From Syntrophus aciditrophicus (GTDB taxonomy: Bacteria > Desulfobacterota > Syntrophia > Syntrophales > UBA5619), in assembly GCA_020726025.1 (NCBI GenBank), contig DYTH01000006.1:1-51080 (forward strand): a stretch of 51,080 bases of DNA, read 5' to 3'. Below are positions 32,488-43,227 of the stretch, piece by piece. A program made the translations under genes and the position numbers. Position 1 is the first letter of the stretch; every line of letters begins with the position of its first letter. Under the pieces are notes generated by a model, which ran no database searches, was not told the DNA's origin, and saw only the letters and a program-made list of their open reading frames with translations.

Positions 32488-35292
32488 ATGATGAACTCAC
32501 AGGGGCACTGGATGAAAAAGGCGGGGGGCTGGATTGTTTTGATTTTGTTGCTGTTTGCGCTTTTCCCGTTGGCACACGCAGCTTCGGACGAGGACTGCAT
32601 GGAATGCCACTCCGACAGACAGTTGACTACAAAACGCGACGGCAAGGCCGTCTCGCTTTTTGTGGATTTGCAGAAATACTCCAATTCGGTTCACGGTAAG
32701 GTGGGGTGCGTCGAGTGTCACCAGGATGCCAATGTCAGCGAGTTTCCCCATCCGGAAAAACTGAAGCCGGTGAATTGCGGAAGCTGCCATGGCGATGCGG
32801 ACAAGGAGTTCAAGGCCAGCATCCATGGAAAGGCGCTTGCCAAAAAGGAGCCGTATGCCCCGACCTGCGTTGAGTGTCATGGCAACCACTACATCTACTC
32901 CAGTAAGGATCCCCGTTCCCTCACCTACAAAACGAATATCCCCGCCCTCTGCGGCACATGTCACAAGGAAGGGGCGCCGGTCGCCCGCATGTATAACATC
33001 CACGAAAAGAATATTCTGGATAATTATTCCGAAAGCATTCATGGCGTGGGCCTTTTGAAAAAAGGGCTTCTGGTGACCGCCGCCTGCAGCGACTGTCATG
33101 GAAATCACCTGATTCTTCCCCATACCGATCCCAAATCCCCAACATCGCCGAAGAATATTGCCAACACGTGCATGGTCTGTCATTCCAGCATCGAGAAGGT
33201 GCATGCCAAGGTTATTCAGGGAGAGTTGTGGGAGAAGAAGCCGGGCGCCATCCCCGCCTGTACCGATTGTCACCGCTCGCATAAGATCAAGGCCGATGCA
33301 CTGACGACAGGTCTTGCCGACAGCGACTGTCTGAAATGCCATGCAAAGGAATCGCTGCATAAGACGGTTGATGGCAAAAATTATTCCCTGCATGTCAAGG
33401 TACAGGAGTTGCAGGATTCCGCCCACAAAAACATTCCCTGCGTCAAGTGCCACGCAGACGTAAGTCCGACGCATAAACGGCCCTGTGATACGGTGGGAAA
33501 GGTCAACTGCGCGAGCTGTCATGCCGAGATAGGCAAAGAGTACGTTGAGAGCGCCCACGGAAAGGCCCATGCCCTCAATAAAAAAGACGCGCCTTCCTGT
33601 GCCGATTGTCACGGATCCCATCACGTATTGCCGTCCAAGAACGTGAAATCAGCGACGTACAGAGGCAATATTCCCCAGTTGTGCGGCGAATGCCATAACG
33701 ATAAGGGAAAGGCCGCAGGGGTCTCCATCGTGCAGGATACCAATGTTGTGGTTGATTACTCGACAAGCGTTCACGGCGCCGCGCTGAAAAAGAAGGGCCT
33801 TCTGCTTACGGCGGTATGTACGGATTGTCATGCCAAACACATGATCCTGCCGCATAAGGACGAGCGTTCTTCGATCAATCCGAAGAACATCTCGAATACC
33901 TGCGGAGTCTGCCATGTGGGAATTTATAAACAATTTGTCAACAGTGTTCATAGCCCGACCGTTAGCAAGTCCGGCAAGGAACTTCCAACCTGCGAGGATT
34001 GCCATTCCTCGCATAAAATAAAACGGGTGGAGCAGGACAAGTTCATGACGGAGGTGACCGACCAGTGCGGAAGGTGCCACCAGGACCTGGCCAAGACGTA
34101 TTTTGACACAGCCCACGGCAAGTCGTACCTGCTGGGCAACAAAAAAGCGGCCAAGTGTTCCGATTGTCACGGCGCGCACGCCATCCTTCCCGTCAACAAT
34201 CCCAATTCGACCGTCGGATTCAAAAACGTGGTGCAGACCTGTCGGCAGTGCCATCCAGGCGCCAACCGTCGTTTTACCGACTACCTCAGCCATGCCACGC
34301 ATCACGACAGGGTGAAGTTCCCGGTGCTCTACTACACCTTTATGTTCATGAGCGCGCTGCTCATCGGCACCTTCGGTTTCTTCGGCCTCCACACATTGCT
34401 CTGGATTCCCCGTTCCTTTGTCCGCATGCGGGAAAAGAGGAGAAATTTTGAGGCCGAAGCGCACAAGAGTCACCGCTACGTGGAACGTTTTAATAACTAC
34501 CACCGTATTTCGCACATCATTCTGATTATCAGTTTTATAGGTCTGGCGGTAACAGGCATGGCCCTGAAATTCTCCGACATGGCCTGGGCCCGCTTCATCG
34601 CCAACATGCTGGGCGGCGCCGTGGCAGCGGGAATTATTCACCGTATTTCGGCCGTTGTCATGTGGGGGCTGCTGTTCTCCCATGTTTACTATCTGGTAAG
34701 AATGAAGATCAGAAATAAAACGCCGGTGAAGGAATTCATGTTCGGGAAGGGCTCCATGCTGCCCAATGTCCAGGATGGAAAGGATTTTATCGCCACGCTG
34801 AAATGGTTTGCGGGAAAGGGGCCCCGACCCCAGTACGGTCGCTGGACCTATTGGGAAAAATTTGACTACCTGGCGGTGTTCTGGGGGGTTCCGGTGATCG
34901 GACTGTCGGGCATGATCCTCTGGTTCCCGGAAATATCCAGCCTTGTTTTCCCGGGGTGGCTTGTCAATGTCGCCGCTATTATTCACAGCGACGAAGCCCT
35001 CCTGGCGACAGGTTTTATCTTTACCGTTCATTTTTTCAATACCCATCTGCGGCCGGAAGCCTTCCCGATGGATCCTGTCATATTTACAGGCGTCGTGCCG
35101 GAGGAAGAGTGCCACGAAGAAAGGCCGCGCAGCTACCAGGAGTCCAAAACTGAAGGAAAACTGGAGGAAAAACTCGTTTCCAAGGATCTGACGCCCGGAT
35201 TCATGAAGTTTGTCTATACATTCGGGTTCCTGTTCCTTTTCATAGGACTGTCGATTGTCGTTTTGATCATCTACACGGTTCTGTTCGGGTAG
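32488..35292 (+). CDS. 19-heme cytochrome c fused to b-type membrane domain
   Basis: A 934-residue protein. A signal sequence or anchor (residues ~14-31) precedes a periplasmic region with 19 CXXCH heme-c motifs between residues 37 and 589, then a polytopic membrane domain (about residues 611-930, 5-6 helices) with paired His resembling cytochrome b561/HydC-type diheme b domains (YHRISHIILII, IIHRISAVVMW, FSHVYYL). The architecture recalls CbcL-type inner-membrane quinol-oxidising cytochromes of Geobacter but has about twice as many hemes. The likely role is moving electrons between the quinone pool and periplasmic or outer carriers; direction is unknown. The heme region is two exact 244-residue repeats plus a partial third (separate entries). 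A strong AAGGAGAG site precedes the ATG. Two sensor kinases follow. Confidence 0.92.
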   Translation: MMNSQGHWMKKAGGWIVLILLLFALFPLAHAASDEDCMECHSDRQLTTKRDGKAVSLFVDLQKYSNSVHGKVGCVECHQDANVSEFPHPEKLKPVNCGSCHGDADKEFKASIHGKALAKKEPYAPTCVECHGNHYIYSSKDPRSLTYKTNIPALCGTCHKEGAPVARMYNIHEKNILDNYSESIHGVGLLKKGLLVTAACSDCHGNHLILPHTDPKSPTSPKNIANTCMVCHSSIEKVHAKVIQGELWEKKPGAIPACTDCHRSHKIKADALTTGLADSDCLKCHAKESLHKTVDGKNYSLHVKVQELQDSAHKNIPCVKCHADVSPTHKRPCDTVGKVNCASCHAEIGKEYVESAHGKAHALNKKDAPSCADCHGSHHVLPSKNVKSATYRGNIPQLCGECHNDKGKAAGVSIVQDTNVVVDYSTSVHGAALKKKGLLLTAVCTDCHAKHMILPHKDERSSINPKNISNTCGVCHVGIYKQFVNSVHSPTVSKSGKELPTCEDCHSSHKIKRVEQDKFMTEVTDQCGRCHQDLAKTYFDTAHGKSYLLGNKKAAKCSDCHGAHAILPVNNPNSTVGFKNVVQTCRQCHPGANRRFTDYLSHATHHDRVKFPVLYYTFMFMSALLIGTFGFFGLHTLLWIPRSFVRMREKRRNFEAEAHKSHRYVERFNNYHRISHIILIISFIGLAVTGMALKFSDMAWARFIANMLGGAVAAGIIHRISAVVMWGLLFSHVYYLVRMKIRNKTPVKEFMFGKGSMLPNVQDGKDFIATLKWFAGKGPRPQYGRWTYWEKFDYLAVFWGVPVIGLSGMILWFPEISSLVFPGWLVNVAAIIHSDEALLATGFIFTVHFFNTHLRPEAFPMDPVIFTGVVPEEECHEERPRSYQESKTEGKLEEKLVSKDLTPGFMKFVYTFGFLFLFIGLSIVVLIIYTVLFG
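32596..33327 (+). repeat. heme module A (8 CXXCH, residues 37-280)
   Basis: First of two aligned octaheme units. Its eight CXXCH cysteines start at residues 37, 74, 97, 127, 155, 200, 228 and 258, each exactly 244 residues before its counterpart in module B. Sequence similarity is plain, for example KKGLLVTAACSDCHG against KKGLLLTAVCTDCHA. Confidence 0.85.
33328..34059 (+). repeat. heme module B (8 CXXCH, residues 281-524)
   Basis: Second octaheme unit, with cysteines at residues 281, 318, 341, 371, 399, 444, 472 and 502. No insertion or deletion shifts any of the eight motifs relative to module A, which indicates tandem duplication with strong length constraint. Confidence 0.85.
34060..34257 (+). 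repeat. partial heme module C (3 CXXCH, residues 525-590)
   Basis: Three motifs at residues 527, 557 and 585 align with hemes 3, 4 and 5 of module B at a constant offset of 186 residues (CGRCHQDLAKTYFDTAHGK against CASCHAEIGKEYVESAHGK). Hemes 1-2 and 6-8 are missing, and the membrane domain follows directly. Confidence 0.75.
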
Positions 35293-35305: not shown

Positions 35306-35346
35306 TTATTATCCCCCCGGCGATGGTTTCGGCGGGGGGATAATAA
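35306..35346. terminator. 14-bp perfect hairpin after the cytochrome gene
   Basis: TTATTATCCCCCCG (35306-35319) pairs perfectly with CGGGGGGATAATAA (35333-35346) around a 13-base loop, 14 bases past the stop codon. The stem is very stable but lacks a following T-run, so it may be a partial terminator or an mRNA-stabilising 3' end. The next gene starts only 36 bases later. Confidence 0.5.
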
Positions 35347-35382
35347 GACATATTCGAATGATAACAATTGAGATTCGTTAAA

Positions 35383-36990
35383 ATGTTCCCAACGGCGCAG
35401 CGCATTGCAAGTTCCATTGGCGCAAAGTTTTTTGTGATACTCGTCTTTTTATTGATAGTTTCCTTTGGCGTTATCATCTATCTGAATGTCTATTTCCTGA
35501 CCAATTTTTGCCGCGAGGCCGGTGTCCATAACGCCATCAAGGTGAGCAACCTCATAAAAAGAGCCACGTATCACAGCATGCTGGAGAATTGCCGTTCCGA
35601 TTTGACCAATACGATTGCAAGTATCGGGAAGGAAGAGGAGTTTCAGGGGATAAGGATATACAATAAGTTAGGCGTCATCGCCTTTTCGGACAAACCGGAA
35701 GAGGTTGGCAAGGTCGCGGACAAGAGGGCGGAGCAGTGCTATATCTGCCATGCGGAAGAGCCGGCGAAGGGTCTTGTGCCTACAAAAGATTTAACGCGGA
35801 TATTTACTTCCAGCGACGGAACACGCGTTCTGGGACTCATCAGCCCGATTGAAAACTCGCCGGAGTGCTTTAACGCCGCCTGCCACGCCCATTCATCGAA
35901 GGACAGCCTGCTGGGAATTCTTGATGTAAAATTGTCGCTTAAGGATGGCGACCGGCGGATTGCATTAACGCGTAACCGTATGATATTCTATTCAGCCCTT
36001 TTGATATTGATAACCGTTCTGGTTAAGGGGTACTTTATTCGGAGGATGATCCATAACCCGATAAAAAAACTGAACGATGCCACGGACGAAGTCGCCAATC
36101 TCAATCTTGATCACAAGGTCGATGTAAAATCAAATGATGAATTTGGTAAGCTTTCAAAATCGTTTAATAAAATGACGACGGAACTCAAGGAGGCCAATCA
36201 GGCGGTTAAAAACTGGTACACCCAACTGGAGGACAGGGTTCGTGAAAAGACACTGGAGCTGGAGAAGGCCGAAGCCCAGTTGATTATGGCTGAAAAGATG
36301 GCTTCGATGGGGGAGCTGTCGGCGATGGTTGCCCATGAAATAAATAACCCCCTTTCAGGGATTCTCTCCTATGCAAAGGTTTCATCCCGCTATCTCGAGC
36401 GCGGCGACAATGACCCTGAGGCGCTGGAGGCGGTGCGTAAGAACCTTGCCTTTATCAGCGAGGAAACGAAGCGCTGCGGCAATATCGTAAAAAGCCTGCT
36501 GATATTTTCCAGAAGGGGGTCCGGAGATTTTAAGGAAGAGCATCTTGCCGAAATAATTGAGAACAGCATCATGGTGATAGACCACGCTATCATGATGAAG
36601 GAACTTAAATTTGTCAAGGAGATGGATTGTGATCATGATTTTATCCGTTGTGATGCGGGTGGCATCCAGCAGGTTTTTGTGGCGCTGATCGTCAATGCCA
36701 TTGAGGCTACCCCCAAAGGAGGGACAATCACTGTAAAGGTGGAATGCGCAGCTCAGAGTGAGATTTTGATTGCCGAGGTGTCTGATACAGGCCGGGGAAT
36801 TCCCGATCAGATATTACCCCACATCTTTGAGCCGTTTGTATCAACCAAAACGAAGGGAACCGGTTTAGGGCTTGCCATGGTCTATGGGATTGTGCAGCAG
36901 CATAGCGGTTCTATTGATGTCAAGACAGTTGAGGATGAGGGCGCCATTTTCACAGTCAGGCTGCCGAGAAATCCACCCCCCAAAAACTGA
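35383..36990 (+). CDS. sensor histidine kinase with periplasmic heme-c motifs (1)
   Basis: A 535-residue membrane kinase. Helix 1 (~17-40) and helix 2 (~200-220) bracket a periplasmic sensor of ~160 residues that holds CYICH (119-123, canonical heme-c motif) and CFNAACH (162-168, CX4CH as in cytochrome c3). A HAMP domain, a coiled-coil linker, HisKA with phosphorylatable His318 in AHEINNPLSG, and a C-terminal ATPase domain (VNAIEAT, DTGRGIP, GTGLGLAMV) follow. The sensor should bind one or two c-type hemes and report redox state or a gas ligand; this is inferred. The ATG at 35383 is preferred over a TTG at 35368 because it aligns exactly with the start of the paralogue downstream; its ribosome site is weak. 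It may be co-transcribed with the cytochrome. A terminator-like hairpin follows the gene. Confidence 0.93.
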   Translation: MFPTAQRIASSIGAKFFVILVFLLIVSFGVIIYLNVYFLTNFCREAGVHNAIKVSNLIKRATYHSMLENCRSDLTNTIASIGKEEEFQGIRIYNKLGVIAFSDKPEEVGKVADKRAEQCYICHAEEPAKGLVPTKDLTRIFTSSDGTRVLGLISPIENSPECFNAACHAHSSKDSLLGILDVKLSLKDGDRRIALTRNRMIFYSALLILITVLVKGYFIRRMIHNPIKKLNDATDEVANLNLDHKVDVKSNDEFGKLSKSFNKMTTELKEANQAVKNWYTQLEDRVREKTLELEKAEAQLIMAEKMASMGELSAMVAHEINNPLSGILSYAKVSSRYLERGDNDPEALEAVRKNLAFISEETKRCGNIVKSLLIFSRRGSGDFKEEHLAEIIENSIMVIDHAIMMKELKFVKEMDCDHDFIRCDAGGIQQVFVALIVNAIEATPKGGTITVKVECAAQSEILIAEVSDTGRGIPDQILPHIFEPFVSTKTKGTGLGLAMVYGIVQQHSGSIDVKTVEDEGAIFTVRLPRNPPPKN

Positions 36991-37016
36991 TTCAGCCGTG
37001 AGAGGCTGAAAATTTT
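36991..37016 (+). terminator. intrinsic terminator-like hairpin after kinase 1
   Basis: TTCAGCC pairs with GGCTGAA around a 6-base loop immediately after the kinase stop codon, followed by AATTTTG. A short stem with a moderate T-run; partial termination is likely. Confidence 0.6.
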
Positions 37017-37036
37017 GATCCATGTTCAAATACCCC

Positions 37037-37065
37037 TTGCAAAAGAGGAATCTCTGCTCTATAGA
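37037..37065 (+). promoter_or_regulatory. candidate promoter in the inter-kinase spacer
   Basis: TTGCAA (37037-37042), a 17-base spacer, and TATAGA (37060-37065). Transcription would start near 37072, leading either to a ~110-nt RNA ending at the terminator at 37184 or, on read-through, to kinase 2. Confidence 0.5.
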
Positions 37066-37071
37066 CACTGG

Positions 37072-37184
37072 ACAGTTGGCCAGGGCTTTATTAAAATTAT
37101 ATGTTGGGCCTGATGGTAATTTTGATGAGAGAATTTTACGACACCAACCCGCAACCATTGAAAATGGATGTGGGTTTTTTGTTT
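37072..37184 (+). ncRNA. candidate small RNA or attenuated leader
   Basis: Defined only by the promoter-like sequence upstream and the strong intrinsic terminator at its end. The ~113-nt transcript would fold into an AT-rich stem-loop followed by the terminator hairpin. No match to a riboswitch class was recognised. It could be an independent sRNA or the 5' leader controlling kinase 2. Confidence 0.35.
37147..37184 (+). terminator. strong intrinsic terminator inside the inter-kinase spacer
   Basis: The 29-nt segment 37147-37175 folds with 12 of 13 positions paired (one A-A mismatch, one G-T) around a GAA loop and is followed by TTTTT, G, TTT. It lies ~110 bases before kinase 2, with no protein gene ending there. 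Confidence 0.75.
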
Positions 37185-37293
37185 CTGGATGGATGCAAAG
37201 AACCTTCTTTCCAATGGATCTTTTCGTTTGAAGGTACGTCATTCTCCCTGAATGATTTCCGGCAAAGGATTTTTCTTCACGAAGGGCTTGCCC

Positions 37294-38862
37294 ATGCTTC
37301 AAAGGATTAAGCGTATCGCCAATTCCATAGGCATGAAGTTTTTTATCATACTCGTGTCACTTTTGGCGGTTGCGTTTGGTGTTATCATATACACGAACGT
37401 CTATTTTCTTACCGACCATTTTCGGAAAGATGCTGTCCGCAATGCGGTAAAAGTCAGCAACCTGATAAAAAGGGCCACCTATTACAGCATGCTGGAGAAT
37501 CGCCGGTGCGATTTGACAAATACCATTGCCAACATAGGCAAAGAACCGGAATTCCGGGGGGTGAGGATATACAATAAGCTGGGCGTCATTGCCTTTTCCG
37601 ACAAGCCTGAGGAAGTGGGCAAGGTGGCGGATAAAAGGGCCGAGCAGTGTTATGTGTGTCACACGGAGGAGCCCGCGAAGGGTGTCGTTCCGACAAAGGA
37701 TTTGACGCGTACATTCAGGGTGGATGATGGGTACCGTGTTATGGGGCTCATCAGTCCCATCGAGAATTCACCGGAATGTTTCAATGCCGCCTGTCACGCC
37801 CATTCTTCCCAGGGGAGTCTGCTGGGAATTCTGGATGTAAAGCTCTCCCTCCAGGATGGAGACGAGAGGATCATTGCGACACGCAACAAGATGATCCTCT
37901 ATTCCGTTTTTCTCATCCTGATTACCGTTCTGGTCAAAGGTTATTTCATATACAGGATGATTCACAATCCTATAAAAAAACTGAACGACGCCACAAAAGA
38001 GGTTGCCAATCTCAATCTTGACTACAAGGTGGACATAAAATCAAACGACGAGCTGGGAAATCTGGCCAAATCCTTCAATGCCATGACTGCCCATATACGC
38101 CAGGAGGCCAGTGAGCTCGAAAAGGCGCAGTCCCAGTTGATCATGGCCGAGAAAATGGCTTCAATGGGAGAGCTTTCGGCGATGGTTGCCCATGAGATAA
38201 ACAACCCGCTGTCCGGGATTCTTTCCTATGCCAGGGTTTCTTCCCGTTATCTTGAACGGGGCAGTGGCGATCCTGAAGCACTGGAATCTGTTCGGAAAAA
38301 CCTCGCCTTTATCAGCGAGGAGACGAAACGGTGTGGAAATATTGTTAAGAGCCTGCTAATATTTTCCAGAAGAGGGTCTGGTGATTTCAAGAATGAGCAT
38401 CTTAACGCAATTGTCGAAAACAGCATCATGGTCATCGACCACAGCGTCAAAATGAAGGAGCTTCATTTGACCCAGGAGTTCAATTGCGATAATGATCTTA
38501 TCCGCTGTGACCCCGGGGGGATCCAGCAGGTTTTTGTGGCGCTTATCGTCAATGCCATGGAGGCGACTCCTCAGGGAGGAACGGTAGGGATAACGACCGA
38601 ATGCGACGGGCAGAATGAAAACATCACGATCAAGGTTTCAGATACCGGCAGGGGAATCCCGGATCATATTCTGCCCCATATCTTTGAGCCATTCGTATCA
38701 ACGAAGACGAAGGGTACAGGCCTTGGATTGTCCGTTGTATATGGGATTGTAAAGCAGCATGGAGGTTCCATTGAAGTCACGACCACGGAGGGTAAGGGCA
38801 CGGTTTTTATTATTATTCTTCCCCGGATTCCGCTCGTGAGTCAAAACAGTGAAACGATGTAA
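37294..38862 (+). CDS. sensor histidine kinase with periplasmic heme-c motifs (2)
   Basis: A 522-residue paralogue of the preceding kinase. The N-terminal ~240 residues align without gaps, with CYVCH at 119-123 and CFNAACH at 162-168. Two membrane helices, HAMP, HisKA (AHEINNPLSG) and an ATPase domain (DTGRGIP, GTGLGLSVV) are all present. The linker between HAMP and HisKA is about 13 residues shorter than in kinase 1, which could alter signal coupling. The ATG at 37294 with GAAGGG upstream is chosen; the frame is open to 37252. The response regulator begins 12 bp downstream. Two sensors feeding one regulator would allow two thresholds or two ligands, but partner specificity cannot be read from sequence. 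Confidence 0.93.
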   Translation: MLQRIKRIANSIGMKFFIILVSLLAVAFGVIIYTNVYFLTDHFRKDAVRNAVKVSNLIKRATYYSMLENRRCDLTNTIANIGKEPEFRGVRIYNKLGVIAFSDKPEEVGKVADKRAEQCYVCHTEEPAKGVVPTKDLTRTFRVDDGYRVMGLISPIENSPECFNAACHAHSSQGSLLGILDVKLSLQDGDERIIATRNKMILYSVFLILITVLVKGYFIYRMIHNPIKKLNDATKEVANLNLDYKVDIKSNDELGNLAKSFNAMTAHIRQEASELEKAQSQLIMAEKMASMGELSAMVAHEINNPLSGILSYARVSSRYLERGSGDPEALESVRKNLAFISEETKRCGNIVKSLLIFSRRGSGDFKNEHLNAIVENSIMVIDHSVKMKELHLTQEFNCDNDLIRCDPGGIQQVFVALIVNAMEATPQGGTVGITTECDGQNENITIKVSDTGRGIPDHILPHIFEPFVSTKTKGTGLGLSVVYGIVKQHGGSIEVTTTEGKGTVFIIILPRIPLVSQNSETM

Positions 38863-38874
38863 AGGAGATTGTCT

Positions 38875-40242
38875 GTGAAACCTGAAGAAATAGGAATATT
38901 GATCGTTGACGATGAGGCATCTGTAAGGGACTCACTGTACCAGTGGTTCAAGGCTGACGGTTATCGTGTGGATACCGCGGATGAGGGGACCAGAGCGCTG
39001 AAAAAGCTGCAGGAAAACGCGTGGGATATTGTTCTGCTTGATATAAAAATGCCCGGCATGGACGGGATTGAGCTTCAAAAAAGAATCAAGGGGATCGATA
39101 ACAATATCGTGACGATCATTATGACTGCCTATGCCTCCGTCGATACGGCGATCCAGGGCCTCAAGGACGGCGCTTTCGACTACATTACCAAACCCATCGA
39201 CCCTGATGATCTGAGCCGTCTGATCAGAAATGCGGTAGAAAAACGAAGACTCGTTACGGAAAATATACAACTGCGCCAGCACATTGAAGAGCTGCTGCTC
39301 CCCGAAGAGGTTGTGGGCGAGAGCCCGGCCATCAAGAGGGTGATGGACATGGTTGATACCGTTGCCCGCACCGACGCCACGGTCATGGTTCTCGGGGAAA
39401 GCGGGACAGGGAAGGAACTGATTGCACGGGCAATACACAGCAGAAGCTCCCGCAGGTACTTTCCGATCATCGCCATCAACTGCGGCGCCTATACCGAAGG
39501 ACTGCTGGAAAGCGAACTGTTCGGCCACGAAAAGGGTTCCTTTACCGGGGCGATGTACCGAAGAAAAGGGAAGCTCGAAATGGCCGATAAAGGCACCCTG
39601 TTTCTGGACGAGATCGGTAATATCAGCGAAAAAATGCAGATGGATCTTCTGCGCGTGATAGAAACCAAAAAATTTACCAGGCTGGGAGGCGACAAGACCA
39701 TTGATGTCGATTTCCGGATTATCTGCGCGACCAATAAAAACCTGGAGAAGGCGATTAAAGATGGGAGTTTCCGTGAGGATCTCTATTATCGTCTGAATGT
39801 TTTTTCCATTGTTTTGCCGACTTTGAAGGAACGGCGGGAAGATATCCCGCTGATTGCGAGATATTTTCTGAAACAGTATGCCCAGTCGATGAATAAGGAT
39901 GTCATTGATTTTTCACCCCAGGCCAGGGAGGCGTTCACTGGTTACGACTGGCCCGGAAATATAAGGGAGTTGAGAAATGCGGTCGAAAGGGCGGTCGTTG
40001 TGGCAAAGGGGAAATATATCCAGATCGACGATATTGCTTTTCCCTTTCCCTCCGTTTCCGCTGCCGAAGGGGTGGAATCACTCGAAGAGATGGAAAAGAG
40101 GCATATACTGAAAATACTGAACCAGACCAAAGGCAATATCGCCCAGGCCTCCGAAATTCTCGGGATAAGCCGTCTTACCCTGTACAACAAAATTGAAAAA
40201 TACAACTTCCGTAAAGACGAGTTAAACAAACAGTATCTGTGA
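38875..40242 (+). CDS. NtrC-family sigma54-dependent response regulator
   Basis: A three-domain regulator of ~455 residues. The receiver domain (ILIVDDEASVRD, phosphoacceptor Asp in LLDIKMPGMDG, Lys in TKPID) is followed by an AAA+ domain with Walker A GESGTGKE, the sigma54-contact loop as GSFTGA rather than the commoner GAFTGA, Walker B GTLFLDEIG, and a C-terminal Fis-type helix-turn-helix (GNIAQASEILGISRLTLYNKI). It should activate RNA polymerase with sigma54 when phosphorylated by one or both upstream kinases. GTG at 38875 is preferred over TTG at 38869 since AGGAG lies seven bases before it. No sigma54 promoter was found within the window, so its targets may be elsewhere. The stop overlaps the next gene's start. 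Confidence 0.96.
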   Translation: MKPEEIGILIVDDEASVRDSLYQWFKADGYRVDTADEGTRALKKLQENAWDIVLLDIKMPGMDGIELQKRIKGIDNNIVTIIMTAYASVDTAIQGLKDGAFDYITKPIDPDDLSRLIRNAVEKRRLVTENIQLRQHIEELLLPEEVVGESPAIKRVMDMVDTVARTDATVMVLGESGTGKELIARAIHSRSSRRYFPIIAINCGAYTEGLLESELFGHEKGSFTGAMYRRKGKLEMADKGTLFLDEIGNISEKMQMDLLRVIETKKFTRLGGDKTIDVDFRIICATNKNLEKAIKDGSFREDLYYRLNVFSIVLPTLKERREDIPLIARYFLKQYAQSMNKDVIDFSPQAREAFTGYDWPGNIRELRNAVERAVVVAKGKYIQIDDIAFPFPSVSAAEGVESLEEMEKRHILKILNQTKGNIAQASEILGISRLTLYNKIEKYNFRKDELNKQYL

Positions 40243-40826
40243 TGTCTTTTATTTATATTGTCCCGATTGAACTGGAAGACCATCTTTTCCTCGAAACTCT
40301 CGAAGGGTTGATCTCCGATATTTTTCAGATGAAAACCAGGAGGGCCGAGTTTAAGATAAACCTGCAGGAAGTATTTGATGGCAGGCGGTCGCAATACAAC
40401 TCTTCCATGGTGCTTCAGCAGTTGATTGCCAATCCTCCCCGCGATGCGGAAAAGATATTGGGCGTCCTTGACGTGGATCTGTTTATCCCCATACTCACAT
40501 TTGTTTTTGGCGAGGCGCAACTCGGTGGGACAGGATCTGTGGTGTCCATGCACCGTCTTCATAATCGATTTTATGGAATGGATGAAGACAGGGATTTAAC
40601 ATCCAGACGTCTGTTGAAAGAGTCTGTGCACGAATTGGGGCACACGTTTGGCCTGATTCACTGCTCGCATCCCGGATGCGTGATGAATTCGTCAACCTAT
40701 GTTGAAAATATTGATCAGAAATCGTCCGAGTTCTGTCCGCTTTGTCTCAAAGGGATAAGAAAGAGTGACGTGGACACCGCCCCTCGCAGGCTGTTCACGT
40801 TCCCCTGGCACAGCAGGAAAGGCTGA
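40242..40826 (+). CDS. amzA: archaemetzincin-type zinc metalloprotease
   Basis: A 194-residue cytoplasmic metzincin. The zinc site HELGHTFGLIH is followed by C-X4-C (CSHPGC), the Met-turn VM and, 16 residues later, CPLC, matching the archaemetzincin pattern HEXXHXXGX3CX4CXM...CXXC that adds a second structural zinc. Physiological substrates of bacterial archaemetzincins are not established. The ATG shares a base with the response regulator's TGA, so translation is coupled. Such tight linkage to a two-component system is unusual and suggests the protease belongs to the same response. It converges on the cytochrome b gene with 41 bp between. Confidence 0.93.
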   Translation: MSFIYIVPIELEDHLFLETLEGLISDIFQMKTRRAEFKINLQEVFDGRRSQYNSSMVLQQLIANPPRDAEKILGVLDVDLFIPILTFVFGEAQLGGTGSVVSMHRLHNRFYGMDEDRDLTSRRLLKESVHELGHTFGLIHCSHPGCVMNSSTYVENIDQKSSEFCPLCLKGIRKSDVDTAPRRLFTFPWHSRKG

Positions 40827-40867: not shown

Positions 40868-41524
40868 TTATGCGGTTCTTCCTTCCTCTTCGGATTCCTC
40901 TTCATAACCGACGATCATGGATTTGATATGGTCAAGCAGGTGATGTCCCATGGTTGTCATGTAGAGATGCACCATAAAGTTGAGAAGGCACAGGTAGGCG
41001 GCAATGACATGCACAGCATCGAGCATTCTTACGCCGCCGAAACGCTCTATTGAATCCCGAAAATAGAAGATATCACTGAAGAGTATCCCGGTTATGATAA
41101 GAGCAAGCAACACGACCGGCATGACGATGCCGTATGTCAGCTTTTGCAGGGGATTGAATTTTCCCGTGGGCGTAGCCGTGAAGGGATTCTTTTCCCCATT
41201 GAACACGCCGATGACATAGTAACGCGCCTGTTTTCCCATGAGTGCAATGTCGGAGATGCGAAACAGGTAATGCCTTATGAAACTTCCACTGACGATGATA
41301 TATGCCAGCCAGAACATAAAGGATGCCGCCAGCGCAAAACCGGCGTACTTATGGATTAAAACAGCGGTGGTGTAATCTGGAAACCATACCCCGATACTCC
41401 TGGGGATTGCCTCCGTGCCGGGCGCCCTGAGTTGTATGCCGGTAATTGTCAGCGCTATGACAATGGATGCATTGATCCAGTGCCATAGACGAATTGTCAG
41501 TGTATGAAGGTAAATTCTTTTCAT
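40868..41524 (-). CDS. cytochrome b561-like membrane subunit
   Basis: A 218-residue integral membrane protein with four predicted helices and His placed as in b-type cytochromes of the FdnI/PhsC type: LWHWIN in helix 1, IHKYAGF at the start of helix 2, and DAVHVIAAYL and FMVHLYM in the last helix. It probably ligates two b hemes and exchanges electrons with quinones. The ATG overlaps the stop of the 13-heme cytochrome by four bases, so the two are made together and probably form one complex. Confidence 0.88.
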   Translation of the reverse strand: MKRIYLHTLTIRLWHWINASIVIALTITGIQLRAPGTEAIPRSIGVWFPDYTTAVLIHKYAGFALAASFMFWLAYIIVSGSFIRHYLFRISDIALMGKQARYYVIGVFNGEKNPFTATPTGKFNPLQKLTYGIVMPVVLLALIITGILFSDIFYFRDSIERFGGVRMLDAVHVIAAYLCLLNFMVHLYMTTMGHHLLDHIKSMIVGYEEESEEEGRTA

Positions 41525-43185
41525 CTTTTTATCACCAGTATTCTTAAAACGGCATGAACCATGCAGCCGAGAAATGCCAGGATAAGCATAGTAATCCCGG
41601 CCAGATCAATGAGCTTGAAGCCCAAATTCCTGATATAGGATGTCCAGTCCTGGGGGGCCTTGTGGATAAGTTTGTCGAGATCGGCCCGGGTGATCTTTTC
41701 TTCACCGAGTACGTAAATATCGAGGGCCAGAGCCAGCGGGTAGGTTGACAGCAGCGTGCCTTTCACCGGCGTGTAAATATGTTCCTCTTTCCCGGGCAGG
41801 TTCAAGTACATCGAGTTGTAGAAGCATGCCTGCGGCGAGTGGCAGACAACGCAGTTTCTCTCCTTCAGCCTGGTGACGGAGTAATCATGGTGGACTCTGG
41901 TAACCACGATCTCCGCATCAATGGAAACGCTGATGTTCATTTTCCTGTTCAGGTCTTTCAGCAGATTGCCGATGTCATTTCCCTTTAAAATGTCTTCACT
42001 GTATTTGTCGATGACCGATCGTACCGTTATGTCGTGGCCGAAGGCGGTTTTAAAATCCTTGTAGGTCAGCGGGGCTTTTTTCTCGCCGTCCTTTTTTTCA
42101 AAAAAGAATACCATGCTTTTTTCAGACCCGGGGCTGTGGCAGGTGGTACATTCCAGATACTTGAAATGCAGAGCCGTGTTGGGCAGCCATTTATGCCGGG
42201 CCATGTAATCCTTATGGCAGCTCGAACAGACGGCGACTCTTTCCTGGGCGTTGTATTCCTTGTAGGGTTTTATCAGATGGGGGTTGTGACAGTCCGTACA
42301 GGCGGCTGAATTATTTCTGCCGTGGATGGAACTCTTATACGTATTGTAAACATTCTGATGACATTGCGAACAGACGCTATCGGAAATTTTATCCTGGGAT
42401 GTGTGACAATCGATGCATTTGACCCCGTTTTTCCCGTGGACTGTTTTTGCGAAATCCCGTATCGACGGAAATTCCGGGATGAAAATCCCTGGATCTATCT
42501 GGATGCTGTAACCCGACTCACCGTTGATTTTTGCCGTAGCGGTTGCGAACCTTGTCCGTTTGTCGTGACATTCACTGCAGTCGGCGGGTTTCGGCATGAT
42601 GCTGTGCACGTTCCCGTAGGACCAGTACTGCCGGTCGGCGCTTGCCCCCTGGAATTTATGCTCGAGCTGATATTCAAGGGCATGCCATTCGGTTTTATCA
42701 ACAAAACCGTTGCCGTCGTGGTCAACATCCTTTTTTCCCAGAATAGACGCCCCGGGAAGCTTGACGGTCACCGTTATGCCGCTTTTTTCAGGCATGCCGT
42801 GACAGGAAATGCAATTTAACGACGCAAGGTGTTTGGCGCGGGAGGGAAGTTTTTCATGGGACGCCTTTGCATGACACGATGTGCAGGTGGCTGTTTTTTC
42901 TTTACTGTGTACATTGTGACAGTCAATGCAGGCCATTTTTTTGTTTTGATGAACGCTTTTACTGAAGCTTTCCGATGCCTTGCTGTGGCATTTCTGGCAG
43001 GTGGGCTGTGAATGCTTGTGTGTGTGGGGAAAACCCGTAATCTCCGTGTGGCAGTCATTACAGGAAACCCCCTGGTGAGAAGCTGTTTTTTTGAACGATC
43101 CGTGACAATCCGTACATTGTTCGTGGGTGGGATATGCCCACAGTGGCGAGGCGAGAAAAAGAACGATCAGCACAGCAAAATGCAT
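41521..43185 (-). CDS. 13-heme membrane-anchored cytochrome c with EF-hand loop
   Basis: A 554-residue protein with a signal peptide (HFAVLIVLFLASPLWAYP), 13 CXXCH heme-c motifs, and a single C-terminal membrane helix (GITMLILAFLGCMVHAVL), so the hemes face the periplasm. A perfect EF-hand calcium loop DHDGNGFVDKTE lies at about residues 155-166 between hemes 6 and 7. A ~100-residue stretch without hemes (about 375-450) precedes the last motif, CVVCH. The start at 43185 is chosen because a G-rich ribosome site precedes it and it gives a clean signal peptide; the frame is open to 43209. It probably passes electrons to or from the b-type partner encoded by the next gene. No close named family was recognised. 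Confidence 0.9.
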   Translation of the reverse strand: MHFAVLIVLFLASPLWAYPTHEQCTDCHGSFKKTASHQGVSCNDCHTEITGFPHTHKHSQPTCQKCHSKASESFSKSVHQNKKMACIDCHNVHSKEKTATCTSCHAKASHEKLPSRAKHLASLNCISCHGMPEKSGITVTVKLPGASILGKKDVDHDGNGFVDKTEWHALEYQLEHKFQGASADRQYWSYGNVHSIMPKPADCSECHDKRTRFATATAKINGESGYSIQIDPGIFIPEFPSIRDFAKTVHGKNGVKCIDCHTSQDKISDSVCSQCHQNVYNTYKSSIHGRNNSAACTDCHNPHLIKPYKEYNAQERVAVCSSCHKDYMARHKWLPNTALHFKYLECTTCHSPGSEKSMVFFFEKKDGEKKAPLTYKDFKTAFGHDITVRSVIDKYSEDILKGNDIGNLLKDLNRKMNISVSIDAEIVVTRVHHDYSVTRLKERNCVVCHSPQACFYNSMYLNLPGKEEHIYTPVKGTLLSTYPLALALDIYVLGEEKITRADLDKLIHKAPQDWTSYIRNLGFKLIDLAGITMLILAFLGCMVHAVLRILVIKR

Positions 43186-43227
43186 ATGTCCCCCAGTCAA
43201 AACATCCAAAGGCTGACAGCACGCCGC

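Follow-up and report, generated by a model that had tools for sequence, protein, structure and literature searches.

Two signalling proteins of Geobacter, the two-component protein GSU0599 and the HAMP protein GSU0591/CbcD, the latter annotated as a Cbc5 subunit, each contain two c-type heme motifs (PMC8396549, PMC3831638, PMC7894505). The Cbc5 subunits are CbcA with seven hemes, the b561 subunit CbcB, CbcC with 12 hemes, and the HAMP-containing CbcD with two hemes (PMC7894505; PMC7726332). The chemoreceptor proteins GSU0582 and GSU0935 were placed within the sCache_heme family (PMC12889525), and Met60 of GSU0935 is a documented axial heme ligand (PMC8396549). Little is understood about how cytochrome-respiring bacteria monitor the redox state of their respiratory chain, or about how they choose among quinol dehydrogenases such as CbcL and CbcBA. 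Here we analyzed a 51,080-nucleotide stretch of Syntrophus aciditrophicus DNA (contig DYTH01000006.1 of assembly GCA_020726025.1, a draft genome of 2.16 Mb in 149 contigs), hereafter the window, in which two adjacent histidine kinase genes, K1 and K2, precede the gene of a sigma54-dependent response regulator. On balance, we favor the reading that K1 and K2 are paralogous Cache sensor kinases with two c-type hemes each, which report the redox state of the cytochrome/menaquinol chain to a single sigma54 regulator.

Heme motifs and fold of the K1 and K2 sensors

K1 and K2 are both complete, with the domain order TM1-sensor-TM2-HAMP-HisKA-HATPase (TM, transmembrane helix), and share 75% identity overall. 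Each contains a HAMP domain, a HisKA domain with the phosphoacceptor histidine, and a HATPase_c domain with N and G boxes, and is thus a sensor histidine kinase by domain content. A TTG codon at 35368 and an ATG codon at 37252 are alternative starts of K1 and K2, respectively. The original prediction described twin kinases with CXXCH and CX4CH motifs between their membrane helices, gap-free sensors, and an adjoining quinone-linked multiheme cytochrome. Each of these points was borne out: both kinases are full-length, each has both motifs in the stretch between its two hydrophobic helices, the alignment of the sensor domains contains no gap, and the adjoining cytochrome combines 19 CXXCH motifs with a b561 domain. 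Each sensor thus has two CX2-4CH motifs within its extracytoplasmic domain, which is what defines the two-c-heme kind (PMC8396549), and probably carries two covalent c-type hemes.

The conservation of the motifs was analyzed in an alignment of 82 sensor domains, comprising 80 domains from 71 loci on genome contigs of relatives and those of K1 and K2. Met66, Cys162, Cys167, and His168 (K1 numbering) are invariant in all 82 sensors at identities down to 24%, His170 is kept in 81, and 75 have the full first motif. The heme motifs are not a chance occurrence, because the second is invariant over this range of divergence and the first is nearly always complete. In the seven exceptions, which are kinases from Desulfuromonadales-type loci, CXXCH has decayed alone while CX4CHxH and Met66 remain intact, which argues for two separate cofactor sites instead of a joint metal site. 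The simple version of a model with His170 as the distal ligand of heme 1 was rejected, since His170 is retained in 7/7 of these relatives. The loci concerned (L064, L066, L073, L079, L081, L083, and L086) also encode, a few kb away, a HAMP-type sensor that is short, lacks a kinase part, and keeps both motifs.

Comparison of a profile of the 82 domains with the PDB revealed a match to 3b42, the sensor domain of GSU0935 (E 7e-5), and a weak match to 3b47, that of GSU0582. In the profile alignment, the CQSCH motif of GSU0935 (Cys140/Cys143/His144) is placed on CX4CH and its Met60 on Met66 (3b42 chain residue 106 is Cys140, an offset of 34; Met66 lies opposite chain residue 26, which is Met60). 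The arrangement typical of GSU0582 and GSU0935, with a c-heme motif in the C-terminal half and an axial Met in the first helix, is therefore found here by way of the 3b42 alignment. CX4CH, with His168 and Met66, would accordingly represent the ancestral heme site and CXXCH an added one, because the heme motif and axial Met60 of GSU0935 align on CX4CH and Met66. The two motifs had been given equal weight at the outset; both are present, but the alignment separates an ancestral from an added site. A single-sequence PDB search returned designed proteins alone, which have no bearing on the question, so that the heme-sensor match needed the profile.

The Pfam family PF21563 (Mcp40H-20_sensor) was matched by 67/82 members at E <= 0.1, a weak similarity (best 5e-7) in which K1 scored 14.3 bits, below the cut-off of 27. 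The AlphaFold (AF2) model of the sensor (pLDDT 80.6) forms a single Cache domain between two TM helices. Its nearest structure is WalK (Z 14.7, with a root mean square deviation [rmsd] of 2.4 over 137 residues), and KinD, CitA, and DctB were also matched, so the model supports membership in the Cache superfamily. GSU0935 (3b42) ranked fifth in Foldseek (E 2e-5) with a poor rmsd, which may be explained by its swapped-dimer crystal form. A cytochrome c assembly protein is encoded in the same genome. The proposal of a c-heme redox or gas sensor is thus strengthened by the homology to GSU0935 with its axial positions, the strict conservation, this assembly protein, and the electron-transfer neighbors.

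Kinase duplication and the probable shared regulator

Comparison of K1 and K2 revealed that 18 residues of the HAMP-HisKA linker, K1 268-285 (LKEANQAVKNWYTQLEDR), are missing from K2. The earlier figure of about 13 residues does not hold, being the difference in total length alone (535 vs 522 aa). The single-kinase orthologs of relatives have the long linker, indicating that the long form is ancestral and that K2 lost the segment. At 3.6 residues per turn, the loss amounts arithmetically to 5.0 alpha-helical turns, so the helix is shorter while its rotational phase is kept.

In the tree, K1 and K2 group as sisters (support 100/99) within the single-kinase orthologs, and both have the same branch length of 0.19. 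Their synonymous sites are saturated (pS 0.72) and their nonsynonymous divergence (dN) is 0.15, indicating that both copies are old and constrained; an assembly artefact as the source of the twin genes was rejected on account of the same saturation. Among 247 genomes sampled from the phylum and 60 relatives, none showed another case of two kinases of this family side by side on one strand, and a search of annotated plasmids for the pair gave no match. The duplication is lineage-specific. It is conceivable that one copy, K2 or else K1, is superfluous or in decay and has no role of its own, given that adjacent same-strand twins were found in this genome only and that one kinase suffices in the orthologs; however, the catalytic and heme residues are intact in both copies, and the low dN against saturated synonymous sites and the equal branches make this unlikely.

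The domains of the two kinases differ in conservation: the DHp is 95% identical, whereas identity falls to 81% for the periplasmic and to 68% for the catalytic (CA) domain. In two-component systems, the contacts that choose the regulator reside in the DHp. K1 and K2 therefore very probably feed one shared regulator, the single sigma54-dependent protein encoded next to them, in agreement with the original prediction of two kinases acting into one regulator. This protein consists of a receiver, a sigma54 AAA+ domain, and a helix-turn-helix domain, and it is 83-84% identical to the regulator that adjoins single-kinase orthologs; sigma54 is encoded in the same genome.

Gene neighborhood and proposed mechanism

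The order kinase-regulator-archaemetzincin was found in 21/49 kinase loci and marks a clade of 19 rows (support 100/100) that includes K1 and K2 and has members in Syntrophia, metagenome-assembled genomes of Kryptoniota/Bacteroidota, Acidobacteria, and Planctomycetota. The archaemetzincin gene lies directly 3' of the regulator gene, a position kept across several phyla. Either a multiheme cytochrome or an Fe-S protein with several clusters was present in 23/29 long family loci vs 7/40 random background stretches. The kinase family itself occurs in 83/247 sampled genomes of the phylum, about a third. In the window, the CbcL-like cytochrome upstream of K1 is a possible target or electron donor of the kinase system. 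Within its heme part, a unit of about nine hemes is duplicated in tandem (42% identity, E 3e-70), and the CbcL-like neighbors in loci L036 and L042 have nine CXXCH motifs vs its 19. The b561-type and 13-heme cytochromes downstream are both retained next to the single-kinase orthologs of genomes G007 and G011.

Another branch of the family is located at clusters with cytochrome b561 and 7-heme and 12-heme cytochromes (e.g., L072), which match the published Cbc5 subunit content, whereas the clusters of L093 and similar loci differ in having a 12-heme cytochrome together with a 5-heme cytochrome and an Fe-S protein. Short sensors in the CbcD position of the Cbc5-type clusters, such as L072:7986-8822, are homologs of the K1/K2 sensor domain. 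Judged from this homology, CbcD, which is counted as an electron-transfer subunit (PMC7894505), may be a signalling protein.

In the mechanism we propose, heme 2 (CX4CH, His168), homologous to the heme of GSU0582/GSU0935, probably has Met66 as a labile distal ligand. Oxidation, or the binding of nitric oxide (NO) or carbon monoxide (CO), would release Met66 and move the membrane-proximal helix. Heme 1 (CXXCH), the later addition, may most simply take up electrons from periplasmic multiheme cytochromes and hand them on to heme 2; the sensor would in this way read the redox poise of the cytochrome/menaquinol chain. From there the signal would travel via TM1/TM2, the HAMP domain, and the signalling helix to reach the DHp histidine and finally the sigma54-dependent regulator; heme occupancy, Met66 ligation, electron entry at heme 1, the shared regulator, and the target genes are the inferred parts of this scheme. 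After the duplication, K2 would have been shortened by its 18 helix residues with the helical phase unchanged. Separate expression is also conceivable: hairpins flank K1, namely the terminator-like hairpin between K1 and K2 and the hairpin at 35306-35346, so transcription of K1 may be separate from that of the K2-regulator-archaemetzincin unit. The latter hairpin, which separates the cytochrome gene from K1, is perfect and highly stable (about -38 kcal/mol, z -5.2). That the set-points of K1 and K2 differ, the two settings of the original prediction, is assumed only, and its tuning of electron flow is likewise conjecture. A further proposal, which we consider doubtful, is that the twins form a two-threshold redox comparator, in which differing potentials and helix lengths would act through one sigma54 regulator to switch between quinol-oxidising cytochrome complexes, with the archaemetzincin in the same response.

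Several results weigh against the redox reading. PF11845 (sCache_heme) was matched by neither K1 nor K2 at E <= 1, and by only 2/82 members, weakly (best E 0.068). Beyond the closest relatives, the cassette is preceded by operons for GcvH-like proteins, an HmcB-like Fe-S protein, and an HmcC/NrfD-like membrane subunit, and in these other phyla it stands beside such Hmc-like operons without multiheme cytochromes within the stretch seen, so that no one electron donor can be singled out. The enrichment of electron-transfer genes (p 4e-7) is indicative only, as the loci are related and the background came from one phylum. A scan for sigma54 -24/-12 promoters in the window and in upstream regions, including those of cytochrome genes, yielded nothing above background, and hence we make no regulon claim. 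The operon of GcvH-like, HmcB-like, and HmcC-NrfD-like genes, seen upstream of the kinase in L049-L062, possibly encodes a quinone-linked complex with lipoyl-type proteins. An NrfD/FeS/GcvH module was not found in the genome under study, which holds one ordinary GcvH and a fragment; as the genome is incomplete, this proves little. In Geobacter, the regulator BccR governs cbcBA, a relation not used as evidence here. Literature searches on BccR/CbcBA regulation and on archaemetzincin with two-component systems gave nothing usable.

The main rival to the redox reading is a sensor mainly of NO, in which NO would bind heme 2 on the side of Met66, heme 1 would keep heme 2 reduced, and redox poise would not be the primary signal. 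GSU0582 and GSU0935 bind NO and CO with displacement of the Met (PMC8396549), and tight NO binding, with no stable oxy complex, was observed for an sCache_heme protein associated with signalling (PMC12889525). That protein, however, reportedly lacks the axial Cys and is thought to hold water at the sixth position (PMC12889525), whereas a conserved Met is present here; moreover, the neighbors are quinol/cytochrome complexes, and the window neighbors examined included no recognisable nitrogen-oxide reductase. We therefore give NO sensing a rather low probability. That the motifs form a single zinc or Fe-S site instead of two hemes is very improbable: Cys/His-rich motifs are able to bind metals, but the second motif stays intact in the seven relatives without the first and is homologous to a crystallographic c-heme site, and a periplasmic location with the CX2-4CH form is typical of c-heme.

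Table 1. Positions of the kinase genes, their heme-related residues, and neighboring features in the window
Feature	Position	Strand	Basis
K1, Cache-type sensor histidine kinase with two heme motifs, 535 aa	35383..36990	+	Open reading frame; Pfam HAMP, HisKA, HATPase_c
K1 Met66, aligned to axial Met60 of GSU0935	35578..35580	+	82/82 sensors; profile alignment to 3b42
K1 CXXCH (CYICH), residues 119-123, predicted additional c-heme site	35737..35751	+	75/82 sensors
K1 CX4CH (CFNAACH), residues 162-168, equivalent to GSU0935 Cys140/Cys143/His144	35866..35886	+	82/82 sensors; 3b42 alignment
K1-only segment of the HAMP-HisKA linker, 18 residues	36184..36237	+	K1/K2 alignment
K1 phosphoacceptor His (AHEINNP)	36334..36336	+	HisKA match; sequence
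Terminator-like hairpin with U-tract, K1-K2 intergenic	37146..37176	+	RNA fold z -2.6
K2, second kinase, 522 aa, short linker	37294..38862	+	Open reading frame; Pfam HAMP, HisKA, HATPase_c
K2 equivalent of Met66	37489..37491	+	Sensor alignment
K2 CXXCH (CYVCH)	37648..37662	+	Motif; sensor alignment
K2 CX4CH (CFNAACH)	37777..37797	+	Motif; sensor alignment
Sigma54-dependent response regulator: receiver, AAA+, Fis-type helix-turn-helix	38869..40242	+	Pfam
Archaemetzincin-family metalloprotease, third cassette gene	40239..40826	+	NCBIfam NF033823, above cut-off
CbcL-like inner-membrane cytochrome, 19 CXXCH and b561-type domain	32488..35292	+	Pfam; motif count
b561-type cytochrome	40868..41524	-	Pfam
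13-heme cytochrome	41521..43209	-	Pfam; motif count

Comparison with known systems

The locus links a predicted two-heme sensor kinase to quinol-linked cytochrome complexes and indicates both the ancestral heme motif and its likely Met ligand. K1 and K2 provide a natural paralog pair for probing how heme potential and linker length relate to the kinase threshold.

Comparison with described systems places K1 and K2 among several relatives. The chemoreceptor sensors of GSU0582 and GSU0935 (3b47 and 3b42) share with them the homologous heme site, the axial Met position, and the Cache/PAS-like fold, but contain one heme with CXXCH spacing and have a chemoreceptor output, whereas K1 and K2 have CX4CH and a second heme motif. 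The sCache_heme family (PF11845, DUF3365/Tll0287) resembles K1 and K2 in being an extracytoplasmic single Cache domain with c-heme that occurs in kinase fusions among others (PMC12889525); K1 and K2 differ in carrying two motifs and in leaving PF11845 unmatched. For the kinase core and the regulator, the best NCBIfam matches are the sigma54 systems AtoS/ZraS-AtoC/ZraR, with scores under the equivalog cut-offs and a different sensor domain.

A close likeness, as judged from published descriptions, is to GSU0591 and GSU0599, which also have two CX2-4CH c-heme motifs in signalling proteins. The sensor class is less new than the original prediction implied, since the two-heme-motif kind is already known from these Geobacter proteins (PMC8396549, PMC3831638). 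In the Geobacter-type relatives we found, a kinase and a short HAMP sensor of the GSU0599/GSU0591 sort are paired around cbc-type clusters. That pair combines a kinase with a kinase-less sensor, whereas K1 and K2 are two full tandem kinases with one regulator and an archaemetzincin. Within the reach of our searches, the tandem twin kinases, one of them with a shortened signalling helix, and the archaemetzincin cassette are the new features of this locus.

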